DNA from: an uncultured Erysipelotrichaceae bacterium | GTDB lineage: Bacteria; Bacillota_I; Bacilli_A; RFN20; CAG-826 | Length of the DNA: 46,118 nt | Assembly (NCBI GenBank): GCA_900317295.1 | Contig: ONGB01000008.1 | Location: 18,837 to 64,954 of the forward strand | Reading direction: 5' to 3' | Shown: one piece after another, positions 4,812 through 20,984 of the stretch | Layout: every line of letters begins with the position of its first letter | Numbering within the stretch: the first letter of the stretch is position 1 | Made by a program: the position numbers and the translations under genes | The notes under the pieces: model-generated | Told to the model about the DNA's origin: nothing | Seen by the model: only the letters and a program-made list of their open reading frames with translations | The model's database searches: none

Positions 4812-4865
4812 ACGTCCCTATGCTACTCCTTTCGCTTAATCTGTCCACACCCCCCTCCCTCCATC

Positions 4866-4894
4866 AAAAAAAGCCCATCATTTCTGGGCTTTTT
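4866..4894 (-). terminator. Rho-independent terminator after sigma-4 operon
   Basis: A perfect 10-bp stem (AAAAAGCCCA / TGGGCTTTTT, 4868-4877 with 4885-4894) closes a 7-base loop and is followed on the minus strand by seven T. It overlaps the last codons of the sigma-4 gene and ends the AAA+ operon. The stem is symmetric enough to work in both directions. Confidence 0.85.
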
Positions 4895-5111
4895 GGGATG
4901 GGGCTTCCACTGCTTTCATCTTGCGGAATGCTTTAGACTCTATCTGACGGACCCTTTCGCGGGTGATCCCTAGGCGCTCCCCCACCTCCTTTAGATCCAT
5001 CGGCTTGCCGTCTTTGATCCCCGAACGAAGCAATAGGATCTCTAATTCCCGCGGGGATAATAGATCCGCATGCTCGCGGAGCAGATCCATCTCTTCTTTG
5101 TTATAGGGCAT
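4878..5111 (-). CDS. Stand-alone sigma-70 region 4-like DNA-binding protein
   Basis: 77 residues made almost wholly of a sigma-70 region 4 helix-turn-helix: 'LSPRELEILLLR' then 'LKEVGERLGITRERVRQIESKAFRKM' (residues about 40-66), the segment that reads the -35 box in housekeeping sigma factors. Regions 1-3 are missing, so it cannot replace a sigma factor; it may bind RNA polymerase beta-flap or DNA as a small regulator. It is the last gene of the AAA+ operon, 4 bp after the preceding gene, and its 3' end is inside the terminator. Fold assignment is confident, role is inferred. Confidence 0.85.
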   Translation of the reverse strand: MPYNKEEMDLLREHADLLSPRELEILLLRSGIKDGKPMDLKEVGERLGITRERVRQIESKAFRKMKAVEAPSQKAQK

Positions 5112-5115
5112 ATAG

Positions 5116-5337
5116 TCACTTTAACTCCTTTTCTATGGCTTTGATCAGTTCTTCATCGCTTAGGGACGCGTGTTGTTTGTCTAGGTAGAATCCTAGGGCT
5201 CCTAATATCGCCTCATAGGCATTACGCGTGATTCTCTTCGCCTGGAAGGCCCTCGTCATCCCTAGGGCGATATCCTCATCGCTTATTCCTTTTTTCCGAT
5301 AGGCGGCGATCACTTCATCGAATTCTTGTTGGTTCAT
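5116..5337 (-). CDS. Small conserved-looking protein of unknown function (73 aa)
   Basis: Unrecognised 73-residue, mostly helical protein with no membrane segment. It has two similar acidic stretches, 'KKGISDEDIALGMTRAF' and 'LSDEELIKAIEKEL', and a central 'ITRNAYEAILGALGFYL' that resembles helices seen in small phage-type proteins. It lies 4 bp before the sigma-4 gene and 15 bp after the preceding gene, with an AAGGAT-like ribosome site, so it belongs to the same transcript. Reality is supported by tight packing in the operon; function unknown. Confidence 0.65.
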   Translation of the reverse strand: MNQQEFDEVIAAYRKKGISDEDIALGMTRAFQAKRITRNAYEAILGALGFYLDKQHASLSDEELIKAIEKELK

Positions 5338-5352
5338 CTGTTTATATCCTTC

Positions 5353-5556
5353 TTATGCTTTGGGCAGATAGGGCTTGATCAATTCATACACGAACTCGTC
5401 ATTGAATACGAACTTGATGCTATGGACATCCATTTCCCTTTGTCCATTCAGGGCTTGCTGGGTGGCCCGATAGAACCCCACGAGCACCGCTTCTAAATAG
5501 TATTCCCCGATGGAATCTTCTAATAACTCCGCCGCTTTTTTCGCTTTGTCGGTCAT
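5353..5556 (-). CDS. Small protein of unknown function (67 aa), AAA+ operon
   Basis: The start is placed at the ATG at 5556 because AAAGGAG lies 7 bases before it; an in-frame ATG five codons upstream overlaps that ribosome site and has none of its own. The product is a helical, soluble protein (MTDKAKKAAELLEDSIGEYY...) with a C-terminal 'VYELIKPYLPKA'. No family is recognised. It sits between the AAA+ ATPase and the 73-residue protein with short gaps (33 and 15 bp), so it may be an adaptor or partner of the ATPase; that is inference from position only. Confidence 0.65.
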   Translation of the reverse strand: MTDKAKKAAELLEDSIGEYYLEAVLVGFYRATQQALNGQREMDVHSIKFVFNDEFVYELIKPYLPKA

Positions 5557-5589
5557 TTTTTCTCCTTTCATTGTTTGTCCGCACGGGGA

Positions 5590-6417
5590 TCAGCCGATCT
5601 CCGCGAAGGGATCATGGATATCGTTAGCGACCGCTTGGATCATCTCGACGGAGATCGGCGTTCCCCGATATCGGTTCCTGGCGTTGCAACGGTCCAAGAT
5701 CTCTAACGCCGCATCGGGGTTAGACGAGAAAGCGGATAGGCCTAAGGATTCCGCGTATATCGCTTCTAGCAGGCTTTCGTCTACATCCTTCTCGATCTTC
5801 TTGGCGAATTCCCGTAACGCGGAGAGGGTGTTCTCTTTCTCCGGGGCTTCCACTTTGATCACCGAGAAGCGTCGCATGAAGGCCTTATCCGCCAACACCT
5901 TCCTTTTGAACTCCTTTGGGGTCGTCGCCCCGACGATGATGATGCGGCCATCCGCCAAATAGGGCTTAAGGATATCGTTAAGCGAAGCGGTCCCATTGAA
6001 CGCCGAGCCATTAAGCCCCCAGAGGGCATGCACCTCATCGACGAAGAGGACGATCTTCGCCGGCATATCCTTTTGCCTGTTATAACAGGATACGTACTCC
6101 AATAGGTCATTGATCTTCTCTTCCACCATCCCAATCAGGGTGCACCCGGATACCAATAGGCTCAGATCAAGCTCAAAGAACCCGAACTTCCTCGTCTTTT
6201 GGGCGGCCTTCCTCACCAGTTGGGTCTTCCCGCATCCGGGCTCGCCCACCAAGATGAGGCTTTGACTCCGCGCCCTGCATAGGCATTCTAGGATCTGGTT
6301 GATCTCCTTTTCCCTTCCCGAGAAATAGGGCACGGGCATCTCCATCTTCCTGACGAAATCGCCATCCTTTCCTTCAAAGAATGTCTCCATATAGGTATTG
6401 GGCGTCATTTTTGACAT
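5590..6417 (-). CDS. Lone ClpA/ClpB D1-like AAA+ ATPase
   Basis: 275 residues from the ATG at 6417, chosen because AAGGAGG precedes it by 11 bases; an upstream TTG would add 16 residues. It resembles the first AAA+ ring domain of Clp chaperones without their N-domain, second ring or ClpP loop. The order is 'YFSGREKEINQILECL' (box before Walker A), Walker A GEPGCGKTQ (about 58-66), Walker B 'IVLFVDEVHAL' (123-133), sensor-1-like 'IIIVGATTPKEF', and an arginine-finger region 'AFMRRFSVI'. A C-terminal lid with 'RYRGTPISVEMIQ' follows. It is likely a hexameric motor or switch ATPase. It leads two small proteins and a sigma-4-like protein in one operon, so a regulatory or defence complex is possible but unproven. 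Confidence 0.8.
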   Translation of the reverse strand: MSKMTPNTYMETFFEGKDGDFVRKMEMPVPYFSGREKEINQILECLCRARSQSLILVGEPGCGKTQLVRKAAQKTRKFGFFELDLSLLVSGCTLIGMVEEKINDLLEYVSCYNRQKDMPAKIVLFVDEVHALWGLNGSAFNGTASLNDILKPYLADGRIIIVGATTPKEFKRKVLADKAFMRRFSVIKVEAPEKENTLSALREFAKKIEKDVDESLLEAIYAESLGLSAFSSNPDAALEILDRCNARNRYRGTPISVEMIQAVANDIHDPFAEIG

Positions 6418-7125: not shown

Positions 7126-7699
7126 TGTTAGCTGTCAGATGATGTGAGACGCCTTCCGAGCTTCGGGCACCTGATCTCGCCTGTAGTTAACAACAGTTCC
7201 CTCAACTTTGCAAACTCGACCTGGTCCGGCGTCTTCAGGCCAAGCGCCATCCTGGGGGTCGAGTTGTACCTCTTCATCCACCTGGATCCCTGCTCCCTCA
7301 GGTCCCCGAGGGAATGGAAGGAGAGGGTTCGGTAAAACCTCTCCTGGTCGATCCTGTGGCTCCGCTCCACCTTGCCGTTGTGCTCCGGGGTCCTGGGCCT
7401 TATGAGTTTGTGGACGATCCCCTGCCTTTGGCAAAAGGAGTCGAGGAGGCAGCCCCCTCCCCTAGCTCGTCGAAGCGCCTGAGCCATTGGTAAAGCGAAG
7501 ATCTTTTGACGCGGTAATAGGGAAGGACCTTCCATACCTCCCAATGGGTTGGCAAAGATGGGGCGTGTAATTCCTTGCCCCGGGTTGTGGTAGACTATCC
7601 GTGGCATCCTCCTTCTTTGTGTTCCTGGACAGAAACATTGTAAGGTCAGATGCCTTTTTTGCTTTGCGGATTTTGTCTCACATCATTTGGAATAGAACA
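7126..7699 (-). mobile_element. Internally deleted, inactive copy of the window's IS
   Basis: Both ends match the complete element at 17945-19098: TGTT...ATGATGTGAGAC at the left and its inverse at the right. It is 574 bp instead of 1154 bp. The transposase is destroyed. The N-terminal part is frameshifted several times, about 185 central codons holding the first two catalytic Asp are gone, and only the C-terminal part from 'CLLD(S)FCQRQGI' (with HNGKVERSHR) is open. No target duplication is visible around it, and its left end abuts the 5' side of RNA-like element copy 1, so the site has been rearranged. Confidence 0.85.
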
Positions 7700-7849: not shown

Positions 7850-9568
7850 TCATCGGGATTGTTTTCTTTTGACGGTCAACGCTGGGGATTTCTCAGAAAT
7901 CTGGAAAATCCAATTCAGATCCTCCACATTTCTTGGCAAATACCCGCATAAAAGCATTGCTCCCTTAAACTGCCCGTTTGTTAAATAGGTGCCATCATAA
8001 TCCTGGAGCGTATGCTTTAAGCCATAGGATGTGTGTTTGTCGTTATAGGTTCGCGTGCGAATAAAATACCGGGAGCACCATTCGATTGCCTTGGTTTGTT
8101 CCTCCACGCTTAAGGACCTAAATTCCGCAGGACGATCAATATCATTCACAACTTCAAAATGACCATGGGCAGCACTTCCGCGACGACGGATCAAACACGC
8201 CTCCTTCATAACGATCATGATGTATTTGACTCCCCCCAAGGATAAGCCCGTTTCCCTTTGGATGTCGGAATACTTTGCAAAGGGGAACCTTTTAATCAAA
8301 TCTTCAATCAACTTATATTTGGGGTTGGATTCGTATAATTCTCCTCTAGTCAAAAATTCATTTGTCCGAGGGATGGTAAACAAAGCTGGTTTGCTTTCTT
8401 TTTCCGCAACAAACGAGCTGTAGGAAAACATCTTATTCTTGAGAACGAGCGTGAACGAGTCGTGCAGCGACTTATAGCGAGGAGCATAACGTTCGTCCAA
8501 AAGGCGATAGTCCGAGAGAATCAAATCAAAGCCTGACCCCCGCTCCTCCATCAAGCCACATCTGGCAAGCATGGCGCAGATGATAGGGTTTCTACGATCG
8601 GATTCTACGCTTTCCAATAATCCGTCTTTAACAAATCCCACCGATCGCATCGATCCAGGGGAAGTCAATTCAATTCGGTTCGGATAGCATTGGAGGGCAA
8701 TCTCGTTGCCAATAATACGATAGTCACGATGTGCAACCGCATTCACGACGGCTTCGCGCAATGAAGCGGAAGAAAAAGAGCCAATCTCTTCTGTGACCAT
8801 CCCTACTTTCATTCCCCCAAATTGATAGTGATTCACGGACCAAACGTATTCGATCATCTCTTTTATCAACGTCAGGATGGAACCTTTGTATTTTTTTGTA
8901 TCCGAAAACCTTTTCCCGCCTTTGTCTTCGCCTGGCCAAGTCGTACAGCAGACATTGGCATTCGCGTAATCGCTATCATCACAGAACAAATACCCTGCGA
9001 TGGTGAGAAAGCCTTTTTTATCAACTAGTCCAAAAGAAACAAGATCCCTATCGTTCAACTTTTTCGTTGGGTTTTTTCTATTGTAATAATCCTCAAGCTC
9101 ACGGAACGAAACATCGTCCGCCCGAATGCCTATGCTAACGGAATCATATGTTTCCGAAGATGCCGCGAGGAGCCTATCTTGCATTTCTTCAACGGTGGCA
9201 GGCAACGTTTGTCTTTCTTCTCTGACATAGGCTAGGGGGCTATGTTCAAAAGGCGTAAGCCAAGTTATTTCTTTTCTTGGTAATATTTCGAAAATAATGC
9301 CTCTTTTTTCAGGAAAACCTGGCCGATCATCATAAGAAACCGAATACTGAACCATTGGGCTGGAAAGGCGTCTGAATTGTTGCACCGCGTAACGCACCTC
9401 ATCATCGACGGTTTCAATGGGCAATCCGCGGAAACTTCCATCGTCCCCGTACCCAACCATAAGCCGTCCGCCTTGAGACATAGCAAAAGCGCAAACGGTC
9501 TTCATCCAATGATCTGGATGGTTTCGATCTAAGATTGTTTTAAACTCGATTTCCTTCGATTCATCCAT
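7850..9568 (-). CDS. AlbA_2/Schlafen-type DNA-binding protein with HATPase-like domain
   Basis: 572 residues from the ATG at 9568, chosen for its GAGGA ribosome site; an upstream ATG would overlap the promoter. The N-terminus (ESKEIEFKTILDRN...CAFAMSQGGRLMVGYGDDG, about 1-60) is the AlbA_2 (AAA_4, Schlafen-like) domain. The middle has the ATP-binding C-terminal module of COG2865 proteins: 'LREAVVNAVAHRDYRIIGNEIALQCYPNRIELTSPGS' then 'RNPIICAMLARCGLMEERGSGFDLI'. A helix-turn-helix-like segment follows (FAKYSDIQRETGLSLGGVKYIM). Such proteins are often regulators or defence/stress-linked, sometimes called RecG-like, but lack helicase motifs. Its promoter is covered by three tandem repeats, suggesting autoregulation. 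Confidence 0.8.
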   Translation of the reverse strand: MDESKEIEFKTILDRNHPDHWMKTVCAFAMSQGGRLMVGYGDDGSFRGLPIETVDDEVRYAVQQFRRLSSPMVQYSVSYDDRPGFPEKRGIIFEILPRKEITWLTPFEHSPLAYVREERQTLPATVEEMQDRLLAASSETYDSVSIGIRADDVSFRELEDYYNRKNPTKKLNDRDLVSFGLVDKKGFLTIAGYLFCDDSDYANANVCCTTWPGEDKGGKRFSDTKKYKGSILTLIKEMIEYVWSVNHYQFGGMKVGMVTEEIGSFSSASLREAVVNAVAHRDYRIIGNEIALQCYPNRIELTSPGSMRSVGFVKDGLLESVESDRRNPIICAMLARCGLMEERGSGFDLILSDYRLLDERYAPRYKSLHDSFTLVLKNKMFSYSSFVAEKESKPALFTIPRTNEFLTRGELYESNPKYKLIEDLIKRFPFAKYSDIQRETGLSLGGVKYIMIVMKEACLIRRRGSAAHGHFEVVNDIDRPAEFRSLSVEEQTKAIEWCSRYFIRTRTYNDKHTSYGLKHTLQDYDGTYLTNGQFKGAMLLCGYLPRNVEDLNWIFQISEKSPALTVKRKQSR

Positions 9569-9590
9569 ATATGATTCCTCGTTCAACAAG

Positions 9591-9628
9591 AGTATAGGAT
9601 AGTGGTTTAGGATGGTCAATAGGATAGT
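9591..9628 (-). promoter_or_regulatory. Promoter with three tandem operator repeats for the AlbA_2 gene
   Basis: Minus strand: -35 TTGACC (9619-9614), 17-bp spacer, -10 TATACT (9596-9591), 22 bases before the ATG. Three near-identical nonamers, plus-strand TAGGATRGT at 9595-9603, 9608-9616 and 9620-9628, recur every 12-13 bp and overlap both promoter boxes, as expected for a repressor bound along one face of the helix. Confidence 0.7.
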
Positions 9629-10295: not shown

Positions 10296-11396
10296 CTATA
10301 TGATTATTCCGTCCAATAAAGGCATCCGCAAATCCTCGGGAAGATTAGATTCGTCAGTCGAATCTCCCAAAAGCTTTAGCGCGGAATCGCGTTCGCCCAA
10401 AAGGAGTAATTTGCATAAGTCGTACCCTTTGCAATCGGAATATGGGGCTAAGGCATTTTCGATATCCTTAGGTTTTATGTCACCCTCGGTTTTCATTTGG
10501 CAATATAGATCCATCGCAGTTACGAGGAAAAGCGAACCCCTCATTGGGACATCCCAACTCATTAAGGTGTCAAAAACATGGCGAGATTCTGCCGGGGTCG
10601 TTTCATAGTATAGATCTATGCAGTCGGCGAGAACCGCCGGGAAGAACGAATATCCCGCTTTCTCGAGCGCGCATTTCAAAAAGCGGAATATTAAATCCTC
10701 GTACTCGTCGAAAAAAGTTGTCAGCCTTTTCTTTTGCATGGGGATTCTTTCTCCGACCTTCAAAGGCTGAAGCCACTTTGCATTTCTCTCATTGACGCGG
10801 CCTTCGGAATGGACAAAGCAGTTTCTGGCAGCCCTGAACGAGGCAAAGGTTTCGCCAAAACCCCGACATGCATCCGGCTCCATTTTCGAAACCCAATCAA
10901 GCACCTCAGGAGAATACTCTTCCACTTCGTTCTGGACGCCGCTATCAAATAGTTGGCAATTGACTAGCATCACCAAAAAGTTTTCTACCTCGATGACGCC
11001 CATGACCAAAATCGAAGTATAAAGGAATTCGAATCTTTCAATCGCTTTAATCACGTTCCGCGCAAGGGCATTAGGAAAGCCGTATTGATTGGTCCGCAGG
11101 TTATACGCTATTTTCCCAGGGCCTAGAAATGATGGTCCGTATGAGAAGGCTTGAATGATCGGACTGTTACAAGCCGAGTTTCGAATCTCCAAAAACTCCG
11201 ATTCGGTCTTTGCATTTTTCAATTTGGCCAAAAGCCTAAATAGTTCATTGCTTTCCGCTTCTATTTTGGAATCTTTATAGATGTTTTTCGCGGCGGTCAG
11301 GTCAACTTCCACGCTTGTTTTCAGCATCATCAGCCGGGATAAGGCTTTAAAAACGGATTGAGCGAAAGAAATACACGTTTGGTCTATAGAATGCAT
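10296..11396 (-). CDS. Large HEPN-type protein (putative ribonuclease), pair partner 1
   Basis: About 366 helical residues. Near residue 195 'FRAARNCFVHSEGRVN' contains RNCFVH, the R-x4-H active-site motif of HEPN ribonucleases, followed by a polar tail as in RiboL-PSP/Apea-HEPN-like proteins. The rest is unrecognised. Start: GAGG lies 6 bases before the ATG at 11396; an earlier ATG at 11408 overlaps the stop of the upstream gene (ATGA) and is the alternative. With the upstream 150-residue protein it forms a two-gene unit inside a gene-poor, rearranged zone, the usual setting of toxin or anti-phage modules. Function inferred from one motif and context. Confidence 0.6.
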   Translation of the reverse strand: MHSIDQTCISFAQSVFKALSRLMMLKTSVEVDLTAAKNIYKDSKIEAESNELFRLLAKLKNAKTESEFLEIRNSACNSPIIQAFSYGPSFLGPGKIAYNLRTNQYGFPNALARNVIKAIERFEFLYTSILVMGVIEVENFLVMLVNCQLFDSGVQNEVEEYSPEVLDWVSKMEPDACRGFGETFASFRAARNCFVHSEGRVNERNAKWLQPLKVGERIPMQKKRLTTFFDEYEDLIFRFLKCALEKAGYSFFPAVLADCIDLYYETTPAESRHVFDTLMSWDVPMRGSLFLVTAMDLYCQMKTEGDIKPKDIENALAPYSDCKGYDLCKLLLLGERDSALKLLGDSTDESNLPEDLRMPLLDGIII

Positions 11397-11404
11397 ATGC
11401 GACC

Positions 11405-11857
11405 TCATTCTGTCGTGTCGATATACACATAAGGGTTTTCGAACACCTTGCCAATAGCAATCATAAATTCATATAAGAAAAGCCAGTTGGTTTCCAAATT
11501 GTCTTCATACCAATACCGCCACTTTCTAAAATTATCCGAAATTACCCCAAGCCATTTTCTGAATTCGGGCGAATCTACGCTCTTGTCCAATAGAGACGGC
11601 ATCCCTTCTACGATGGCACGCCTTACGGATTCTTGGTTCTTATCAAACAATTCGGCTAAAAGGTGCTTTTTCCCATGGTCAATTCCTTGTAACGACAACA
11701 ACGCCTTCAAGCCGAGTTCGCAAGCAAGCGACCCATTCACTACGAATGGCATTAGGTAATCTAATTCGTCACCTTGTTGTTTCGTAAGCATTCTTTCGTA
11801 AAGAAAGACGGCCAAGTCCTTGAATTCATTGAAGGCATATATCCGTGGATTTATCAT
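11405..11857 (-). CDS. Small HEPN-like protein, pair partner 2
   Basis: 150 residues. 'NGSLACELGLKALLSLQGIDHGKKHLLAELF' (about 42-72) closely follows the first helices of HEPN proteins, where an acidic helix is followed by a G/K-rich turn and 'H-x-L-x-x-L(F)'. A late 'FRKWRYWYEDN' matches the R-Y-x-Y-E pattern of the same fold. A canonical R-x4-6-H is not obvious, so it may be the non-catalytic or antitoxin-like partner. Its stop overlaps the next gene's possible start. No strong ribosome site precedes the ATG. Confidence 0.6.
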   Translation of the reverse strand: MINPRIYAFNEFKDLAVFLYERMLTKQQGDELDYLMPFVVNGSLACELGLKALLSLQGIDHGKKHLLAELFDKNQESVRRAIVEGMPSLLDKSVDSPEFRKWLGVISDNFRKWRYWYEDNLETNWLFLYEFMIAIGKVFENPYVYIDTTE

Positions 11858-17944: not shown

Positions 17945-19098
17945 TGTTAGCTGTCAGATGATGTGAGACGCCTTCCGAGCTTCGGGCACCTGATCTCGCC
18001 TGTAGTTAACATCAACTCCCCGAGCTTTGCAAACTCGACTTGGTCCGGCGTCTTCAGGCCAAGCGCCATCCTGGGGGTCGAGTTGTACCGCTTCATCCAC
18101 CTCGCCCCTTGCTCCCTCAGGTCCCCGAGGGAATGGAAGGAGAGGGTTCGGTAAAACCTTTCCTGGTCGATCCTGTGGCTCCGTTCCACCTTGCCGTTGT
18201 GCTCCGGCGTCCTCGGCCTGATGAGCTTGTGCTCTATCCCTTGCCTTTGGCAAAACGCGTCGAGCAGGCACGGCCCCTCCTTCGCGTGCCTGGCCCCGGG
18301 CCTGGCGAACGTCCTGTCCGTGAACTCGATCCCGTTGTCCGTCTGGAGGGCCTTGGGGGCGTAGCCGAAGAACGCGATCGCCGCGCCCAGCGCCCTGACG
18401 GACTCGAACATGGAGTGCTCGTCGGCGAACCAGAGGAAGCGTTTCCTGCTGGCCTCGTCGAGGACGGTGTACTGGTAATAGGATTTGTCCGCGGGCAGCT
18501 TGGGCGATTTGCATTCCGCGGGGACGAACTTCACGTCCATCTGCCATTTGTCGCCGGGGAACGGCGGGGTGTGGTATTTCTTCGAATGCCTTTTGGGGTT
18601 GGTTTCGTAGGGCTTGTACCCCTCCAGCCTCTTCAGGTACCTCAGGGCGGTGGAATAGGAGATGGGGAATCCCGAGGAGACGACCTTGACCCATATGTCC
18701 ACGGAGCTCCACCCGTGCCTCTTCGATTGGTCGTGGAAGCACTTGACCTTGTAGGCGGCCTTGGGGCAAATCGTCGACGGATGCGGGGTTTTCGGCTTGT
18801 GGGAACGGTCCCTCAGGCCTTCCTCCCCGAGCTCGTCGAAGCGCCTGAGCCAGCGGTAGACCGAGGGCCTTTTGACGTGGTAGTAGGAAAGGACCTTCCG
18901 CATCGGCCAGTTCGACTCGCGGATCCTCCTGCAGCTGTGCAGCCTGGTTTCGTATAGGTGGGGAAGGTAATTTCTCTCCCCGTGTTGTGGTAGACTATCC
19001 ATGGCATCCTCCTTCTTTGTGTTCCTGGACAGAAACATTGTAAGGTCAGATGCCTTTTTTCTTTATGGATTTTGTCTCACATCATTTGGAATAGAACA
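17945..19098 (-). mobile_element. Complete insertion sequence, IS481/IS1202-like, 1154 bp
   Basis: Ends are imperfect 25-bp inverted repeats, TGTT-N9-ATGATGTGAGAC, with only the outer four and inner twelve bases conserved. One intact DDE transposase gene fills it. A 26-bp direct repeat abuts both ends. TG...CA termini and a single-ORF rve transposase fit the IS481 group; the long duplication resembles the IS1202 group. A deleted copy is at 7126-7699. Confidence 0.85.
17947..19002 (-). CDS. DDE (rve) transposase, intact
   Basis: 351 residues from the ATG at 19002, preceded by AAGGAGG at 6 bases. The N-terminus has a helix-turn-helix (MRKVLSYYHVKRPSVYRWLRRFDELGEEGLRDRSHKP). The integrase core has D156 in 'WQMDVKF', D222 in 'LQTDNGIEF' and E273 in 'EHNGKVERSHR', a complete DDE triad. 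Its stop codon lies inside the left terminal repeat. GC-rich codon use (GTC, CTC, GGC) differs from neighbouring accessory genes, which suggests recent arrival. Confidence 0.9.
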   Translation of the reverse strand: MDSLPQHGERNYLPHLYETRLHSCRRIRESNWPMRKVLSYYHVKRPSVYRWLRRFDELGEEGLRDRSHKPKTPHPSTICPKAAYKVKCFHDQSKRHGWSSVDIWVKVVSSGFPISYSTALRYLKRLEGYKPYETNPKRHSKKYHTPPFPGDKWQMDVKFVPAECKSPKLPADKSYYQYTVLDEASRKRFLWFADEHSMFESVRALGAAIAFFGYAPKALQTDNGIEFTDRTFARPGARHAKEGPCLLDAFCQRQGIEHKLIRPRTPEHNGKVERSHRIDQERFYRTLSFHSLGDLREQGARWMKRYNSTPRMALGLKTPDQVEFAKLGELMLTTGEIRCPKLGRRLTSSDS

Positions 19099-19608: not shown

Positions 19609-20934
19609 TCAAATCAGGACTTTCCAATATCCCGTTTTGTTGGAACCGATTCTTGCGAGGATCCCCTTGGTTTTTAAATTGGCGAGATAGCGCTGCACGC
19701 TGCGGAAGGGGATCTTCAAAGAACAGGAGAGCTCCTGCGCCGACAAAGAAGGGTTGGTCTCCACCGCTCCGAGGATGGCGTTTTCCTGTCGATTCATCCC
19801 TCCATCGGAACCGCTGATGGAGGCGCTTATCCCTCCGTGGTTGGCCAAGACCTCCTTGTTAAAAGGGATGATGACGTTGATGTGGTTTGGTTGGATATCA
19901 AACACCCCCTCCCCATATTTTTGGAGGATCATCGGGATGCCATGGCCGGTATGCTCAGCGATACCAAGGCGTTGGAAGATCTCCGTCAATTGGGTGTTTC
20001 TGGGTCGGCTGATGCCTTGGAAGAATTCTTCTTTGCTTAGCCCCGCTGGCAGTCCCCCATGGGAAAGGATTTCCAACCGGTCATCGAAAAAGCAAACCAA
20101 CGGGCTCGCGATCCGGTAATCGTTATGGATTAGCGCGTTGATGAGGGCTTCGTTCACCGCGTCGGCATCATAAAGGTAGATATCCTTCCTCGGACGGACC
20201 GAGGTGATGGTCTTGCAGATATTCTCGAGCTCGAGCCGCCCCTTCATTTTCTCGTAGGCGAGGGCGAGGCATTGATTCCCGTAATCGGTCCGCTCCGAAT
20301 AGGAGGCTTTGGTGAGCCCTTTGAATTTGGCGAAGATCAAAGAAGTCGAGTTCGTGTCGGAGAGCAGCTCCGCCAAAACGTTATATTCCCCATTCAACGT
20401 CCTCAGTTTGAGGTTTTTCTCATAGTTCGCTTCTTCCAAGTGGCATCCGCGCTCTAATAGAAGCATCTTCAATATTCGGAAAGAGATATCGCCGTAATAA
20501 GAAGGCATCTGGACCATGAGGTCGCGCTTGGCGAGCCCTTTCTCAAACCGTTCCTTGATCATCGAGAGGGTCATCGATTTGCAAGTGGTGCCGACACGGA
20601 GATGGCACCCACTAGGCGAAAAACCGTATTTTTTGATGCAGTAAAGGGAAGAAAACCCCTTGGTGATGTTGATCTTGATGACCACCTTCCCATCATCGAA
20701 GATGACCTCAGGCTGGACGCAGTCGATGGCGCTCGGCTCGATTTGGTCGGACACGACATCGGAGATTCTCCTTAAGGCGATGTCCAATTGATCGACGCCC
20801 ACGACGTTTCCCTCATCAGTCACTCCCAAATAGATCGCCCCGCCTTCGGTGTTGAGGAAGGCCTCGATCTCTTTGGCGATCTGATCGTTCCATTTCTCTT
20901 TCAGCTCGACCTTTTCGGTTTCGAGATAGTTCAT
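19609..20934 (-). CDS. AlbA_2/Schlafen-type DNA-binding protein with HATPase-like domain, second gene
   Basis: 441 residues from the ATG at 20934 (GGGGAG 9 bases upstream; an earlier ATG has no spacing to it). The N-terminal AlbA_2 domain reads 'ETEKVELKEKWNDQIAKEIEAFLNTEGGAIYLGVTDEGNVVGV'. The ATP-binding module has 'VNEALINALIHNDYRIASPLVCFFDDRLEILSHGGLPAGL' and 'RNTQLTEIFQRLGIAEHTGHGIPMI'. A winged-helix tail follows (NPSLSAQELSCSLKIPFRSVQRYLANLKTKGIL). Same family as 7850-9568 but only distantly similar in sequence. Confidence 0.85.
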   Translation of the reverse strand: MNYLETEKVELKEKWNDQIAKEIEAFLNTEGGAIYLGVTDEGNVVGVDQLDIALRRISDVVSDQIEPSAIDCVQPEVIFDDGKVVIKINITKGFSSLYCIKKYGFSPSGCHLRVGTTCKSMTLSMIKERFEKGLAKRDLMVQMPSYYGDISFRILKMLLLERGCHLEEANYEKNLKLRTLNGEYNVLAELLSDTNSTSLIFAKFKGLTKASYSERTDYGNQCLALAYEKMKGRLELENICKTITSVRPRKDIYLYDADAVNEALINALIHNDYRIASPLVCFFDDRLEILSHGGLPAGLSKEEFFQGISRPRNTQLTEIFQRLGIAEHTGHGIPMILQKYGEGVFDIQPNHINVIIPFNKEVLANHGGISASISGSDGGMNRQENAILGAVETNPSLSAQELSCSLKIPFRSVQRYLANLKTKGILARIGSNKTGYWKVLI

Positions 20935-20984
20935 TCTTCTCATCTCCCCGCCATCATAATTTCAGGGAAGCCAACAAGCAAGAT

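Follow-up and report, generated by a model that had tools for sequence, protein, structure and literature searches.

A four-gene operon encoding a lone Clp-type AAA+ ATPase, two small proteins and a free sigma-70 region 4 is followed by a macro-domain gene in a metagenome-assembled genome of 1.6 Mb (G000) from a gut bacterium. Three of these five genes, those for the 67-aa, 73-aa and macro-CTD proteins, recur in ADP-ribose clusters, including a second cluster of the same genome; therefore, the operon probably represents a new variant among accessory ADP-ribose systems, likely an anti-phage one. More specifically, we tentatively read the operon and the downstream macro gene as a single accessory module linked to ADP-ribose and related, as a variant, to the conflict clusters of the order that centre on ADP-ribose, and give this reading slightly less than an even chance. 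In the literature found, host measures against viral ADP-ribosylation are predicted and hardly tested. The operon suggests a motor-driven countermeasure to ADP-ribosylation, provides small, testable partner proteins, and brings a macro-domain clade without the known catalytic motifs.

The operon and its surroundings

The window, that is, the whole stretch of 46,118 nucleotides that was analysed, is part of contig C49 of G000. The four open reading frames of the initial annotation were found on the minus strand as described (Table 1). They are transcribed in the order AAA+, 67-aa, 73-aa, and sigma-4, with intergenic gaps of 18, 15, and 4 nt. All four frames are intact, each has a Shine-Dalgarno-like sequence, and the base composition of the operon is that of the window. 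For the 67-aa gene, AAAGGAG precedes the start at 5556; this reading was preferred over the 72-aa ORF because a paralogue on contig C59 begins at the equivalent methionine. A terminator had been proposed at the end of the operon, and the minus-strand RNA of positions 4840-4905 indeed forms a strong one, with a 10-bp stem and a U run after it (z = -2.6). The macro-domain gene said to come next is on the same strand and begins 66 nt past the four-gene operon, beyond the terminator.

Table 1. The operon, its terminator, and the following macro gene (positions in the window).
Feature	Position	Strand	Basis or remark
AAA+ ATPase P0001, Clp/Hsp100 D1 type, lone, 275 aa	5590..6417	-	matches to Clp D1
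67-aa protein, family unknown	5353..5556	-	start 5556; 72 aa from alternative upstream ATG 5571
73-aa protein P0003 (p73 family), small, helical	5116..5337	-	profile family
77-aa sigma-70 region 4 protein	4878..5111	-	PF04545 2.1e-16
Intrinsic terminator overlapping the sigma-4 stop codon	4868..4895	-	10-bp stem and U run
Macro domain and C-terminal helical domain, P0005 (macro-CTD family), 371 aa	3696..4811	-	PF01661 1.3e-12

Upstream of the operon, two IS-type transposase ORFs (7128-7607 and 17947-19038) of near-alike sequence and the same orientation, the first being shorter, flank approximately 10 kb of accessory genes. An AlbA_2/RecG-C-terminal-like (Schlafen-type) regulator at 7850-9619 has a weak PADLOC match to Argonaute-associated models, and a second regulator of this type at 19609-20943 was judged by sequence alone. 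Neighbouring proteins of 370 and 150 aa are encoded at 10296-11857, the latter with a sub-threshold HEPN match.

Relatives of the small proteins and the macro protein

The 67-aa protein has a single paralogue in G000, encoded on contig C59 (38% identical, E = 1.4e-8); no relatives were found in the 145 other genomes of the family. The C59 paralogue belongs to a cluster on one strand, which encodes an N-formylglutamate-amidohydrolase-like protein, an ADP-ribosylglycohydrolase (ARH; PF03747, 2.8e-35), an 86-aa protein, the macro-CTD protein P0009, a Sel1-like protein, the 67-aa relative, a 154-aa protein, and two long genes resembling an AddB/AddA pair; the Sel1 and AddBA names were assigned by reading the sequence. 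P0009 is 33% identical to P0005 over the full length, and the 67-aa and macro-CTD paralogues are each single in the genome. The ARH genes of G000 are located on C59 and C66, and C49 has none.

A genus mate (G017) has a cluster resembling that of C59, in which a SIMPL protein and a microbial PARG (TIGR02452) are also encoded. The G017 macro protein shares 48% identity with the C59 copy and 39% with P0005, and the G017 counterpart of the 154-aa protein has a match to the 73-aa family (2e-7). A direct BLAST of P0003 against P0007 was not significant; the link runs through the G017 homologue and the profile. From these relationships, the C49 operon would seem to be a second cluster that has diverged.

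By profile search, the 73-aa family occurs in 20 of the 279 genomes of the order. Its genes adjoin macro-CTD and/or ARH genes in G128, G080, G151, G100, G017, and G028; the remaining loci examined have no macro-CTD or ARH gene near or lie on contigs too short to judge, and loci without ADP-ribose genes are about as numerous as those with them. In 5/20 genomes, an ARH and a 73-aa-family gene lie no more than 10 kb apart, a count that is biased upward by a query alignment drawn largely from members near macro genes. The corresponding chance probability is approximately 2e-5, a rough background estimate that assumes one ARH per 1.2 Mb and a 20 kb span and ignores kinship. ARH is present in 42 of the 146 genomes of the family. 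Relatives of the ATPase, the 67-aa protein, and the 73-aa protein were all missing from 40 other ARH loci; hence, the tie is to clusters combining ARH with divergent macro-CTD genes, not to ARH generally. The single-sequence model of the 73-aa protein is all-helical (mean pLDDT 72) and matched no solved fold. A SHOCT match in Pfam was obtained for one family member out of 14 (7e-4), and P0003 itself had none.

Other settings of the 73-aa family were also observed. In G170, the gene is located between an apparent sigH and secE/nusG/rplK, a housekeeping setting (L109:7821-8057). In three genomes of another bacterial family, 470-aa DUF2130-like proteins adjoin the 73-aa-family genes (L107, L108, L116). 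Three neighbouring genes of G151 (L111:8487-11151) encode a 228-aa protein with a 73-aa-type domain, a macro-CTD protein, and another protein with such a domain; a second macro-CTD gene and an ARH lie a few kb from this trio.

P0005 has the macro fold and the GTGxxGY-type loop of MacroD-type ADP-ribose hydrolases. Unlike those enzymes, which carry NAAN and GGGGVD, the whole clade of P0005, P0009, and their relatives in G017, G080, G128, G134, and G151 has lost both motifs in the alignment with canonical relatives and has an extra C-terminal helical domain; the second glycine-rich loop is mostly kept. The structural model of the macro-CTD protein is modest (mean pLDDT 66) and matches solved macro domains, and its C-terminal helical domain is mostly of fair confidence. 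When genome contigs were scanned with the macro family, one close relative was returned, on a G017 contig; the eight other matches were distant macro domains. In other parts of the class, canonical macro-CTD genes of many families pair with a TerF-like vWA gene at 16/20 loci by an eye count (L136-L150, L154); the one vWA partner tested against Pfam scored 4.9e-4, under the curated cut-off. DruE-like (Druantia) helicases stand in the same strand run as macro-CTD genes at L073:10710-16985 and L077:8470-13833.

A phage origin was considered and rejected, as PHROGs gave the small proteins no match better than 0.02. No relatives of the ATPase, the 67-aa pair, the 73-aa set, or P0007 turned up in scans of viral contigs, and the macro-CTD scan yielded just two distant macro matches. 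Among plasmids, searching with the macro protein returned a pair of distant macro domains and nothing else.

The recurrence of three genes in a second cluster speaks against the view that unrelated small genes and a Clp fragment were gathered by chance in an IS-bearing accessory region and have no joint function. The patchy distribution, the presence of the gene set in one genome only, and the two transposase ORFs would suit such an assembly. However, the frames are intact and closely spaced (4-18 nt) with ribosome-binding sites, the base composition matches the window, and the ATPase has retained its motifs despite strong divergence. We consider a chance assembly unlikely.

The ATPase and the sigma region 4 protein

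The D1-type assignment of the AAA+ protein was confirmed by matches to ClpA (1.1e-33), VI_ClpV1 (4.9e-35), and ClpC1 structures (approximately 1e-25). The best matches of P0001 are Clp/Hsp100 D1 domains, at roughly 35-40% identity. Alignment with 36 Clp D1 sequences shows that P0001 retains all motifs required for ATP hydrolysis: Walker A (GEPGCGKT), Walker B (FVDEVH), sensor 1 (GATT), and the RRF arginines. In the same alignment, the pore loop is CTLIGMV, as against the AKYRGEF type, so that the canonical tyrosine is replaced, and a segment of about nine residues ahead of the strand preceding the pore loop is missing. P0001 therefore resembles the D1 ring of ClpA, ClpC, and ClpB in its Walker motifs, sensor 1, and arginine fingers, but Clp/Hsp100 proteins have two rings, an N-domain, and an aromatic pore loop, none of which was found in this 275-aa protein with a D1 match alone. 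Clp proteins dock on ClpP by D2. P0001 ends after D1, with neither an N-domain nor a second ring; therefore, it cannot dock on ClpP in the usual way. The initial annotation was also right that no protease or chaperone partner is encoded in the neighbourhood; an ordinary two-ring Clp is present elsewhere in the genome (C62).

No orthologue of P0001 was detected in 395 genomes of the class (search levels including 146 of the family), at the 40 other ARH loci, or in the other macro clusters examined, and the suggested linkage of the ATPase to homologues of the small proteins was not borne out. The other strong matches examined were parts of longer Clp proteins, contig-end genes, or a split gene, all at 111 bits or less against a self score of 609. 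One candidate for a second lone ATPase (G054:C8, L115) was rejected as a Clp gene split in two. By these searches, P0001 is an orphan, and its functional tie therefore rests on one operon.

The sigma-4 protein contains a free region 4, as had been noted: the Sigma70_r4 match (2.1e-16) covers residues 18-66 of 77, and no other sigma region is present. The protein shares 49% identity with region 4 of the RpoD encoded in the same genome and keeps the -35 recognition helix TRERVRQIESKA. Sigma-70 factors also have region 2, for core binding and -10 melting, and region 3. The stand-alone protein has neither; lacking region 2, it is therefore not a sigma factor. Linkage of a sigma-4 gene to these small proteins has a single, partial parallel. 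It comes from G080, where a gap of 46 nt separates a 73-aa homologue from the following gene on that strand, which encodes an 879-aa protein whose short sigma-4-like HTH scores 28.5 bits with Sigma70_r4 (cut-off 24.1); no other parallel to the gene order of the operon was found.

This parallel, the preserved recognition helix, and the tight operon spacing are what an RNA polymerase regulator would predict, in which the sigma-4 protein docks on the flap or on -35 DNA and recruits the AAA+ ring to remodel the transcription complex, with the small proteins as adaptors and the macro gene a mere neighbour. Yet the other linked genes are ADP-ribose genes, the pore loop of the ATPase is replaced, and no second AAA+/sigma-4 pairing was found in the 395 class genomes, which makes a plain polymerase regulator distinctly unlikely.

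The best NCBIfam match of the sigma-4 protein is MzaA of the anti-phage system MZA, and it involves the HTH part alone (54/726 positions, 55.8 bits against a cut-off of 800). PADLOC found no other Mza protein among the eight proteins scanned. With the AlbA_2 and possible HEPN proteins among the accessory neighbours, this match could point to an anti-phage effector, the AAA+ ring and small proteins being toxic or abortive and the sigma-4 protein their repressor. In domain scans, however, the operon showed no toxic domain, whether nuclease, protease, or other. As for IetAS, the IetA-type match of P0001 is a weak, general AAA similarity, and the neighbours scanned contain no protease (subtilase IetS) domain. 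An effector of this kind is very unlikely.

Proposed function and comparison with ARG-centric systems

The initial annotation had suggested a motor acting on RNA polymerase or a defence module. This proposal is partly supported. Repeated linkage was found for the 67-aa, 73-aa, and macro proteins, with ADP-ribose genes as the partners, and not for the ATPase; therefore, the evidence leans to an ADP-ribose-linked conflict module. Counted against such a module are the lack of ARH on C49, the terminator that splits the four genes from the macro gene, the many 73-aa-family loci free of ADP-ribose genes, the 40 other ARH loci that lack the small proteins, and the union of the AAA+ and the sigma piece in one operon only.

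In the ADP-ribose module that we favour, the macro-CTD protein would read ADP-ribose on a modified molecule without MacroD-type catalysis, and the 67-aa and 73-aa proteins would serve as adaptors. Using ATP, the AAA+ ring would remodel the target, modified or misfolded, or pull it apart. The sigma-4 protein may bind -35-like DNA and/or the RNA polymerase flap, which could autoregulate the operon or deliver the ring to the polymerase. The roles given to the ATPase and the sigma piece are guesses. The purpose would likely be to counter ADP-ribosylation by phage or rival enzymes. RNA polymerase is a classic target of phage ADP-ribosyltransferases. In the boldest version, the sigma-4 protein steers the single-ring Clp-type ATPase to polymerase that an invader has ADP-ribosylated, the macro-CTD protein recognizes the modification, and the ring and its pair of adaptors strip or rebuild the polymerase as an ATP-driven repair machine; we regard this version as a highly improbable speculation. 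No ADP-ribosyltransferase or sirtuin was found among the proteins scanned with Pfam, a subset of the neighbours.

In the literature found for this gene set, one survey is directly relevant (Iyer et al., 2022; PMC9503650). It predicts operons centred on ARG (ADP-ribosylglycohydrolase), which have a proposed role in undoing viral ADP-ribosylation and contain peptide-binding chaperones (vWA, SseB), macro or NADAR domains, REases, and helicases. Those systems, as far as they are described there, and this genome have in common ADP-ribose genes, macro domains, predicted chaperones, variable helicases, and a patchy, rapidly evolving character. That description is matched by the clusters of C59 and G017 and by related loci with CpXC-SseB (L076), TerF-like vWA, and DruE-like helicases (L073, L077). 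Neither the Clp D1 ATPase nor the sigma-4 protein is named as a component in this text, and, against the regulators it covers, no Nudix or WYL regulator was seen in the window operon. Of the accompanying chaperone and macro components in that account, the macro gene is present in the window, and the Clp-type ATPase may count as a chaperone; the AAA+ ring would then take the slot of the peptide-binding chaperones. The feature by which the same text defines the systems, the ARG gene (PF03747), is absent from the window operon and present in the C59 cluster. On that definition, the window operon is therefore classed not as an ARG-centric member but as a related variant.
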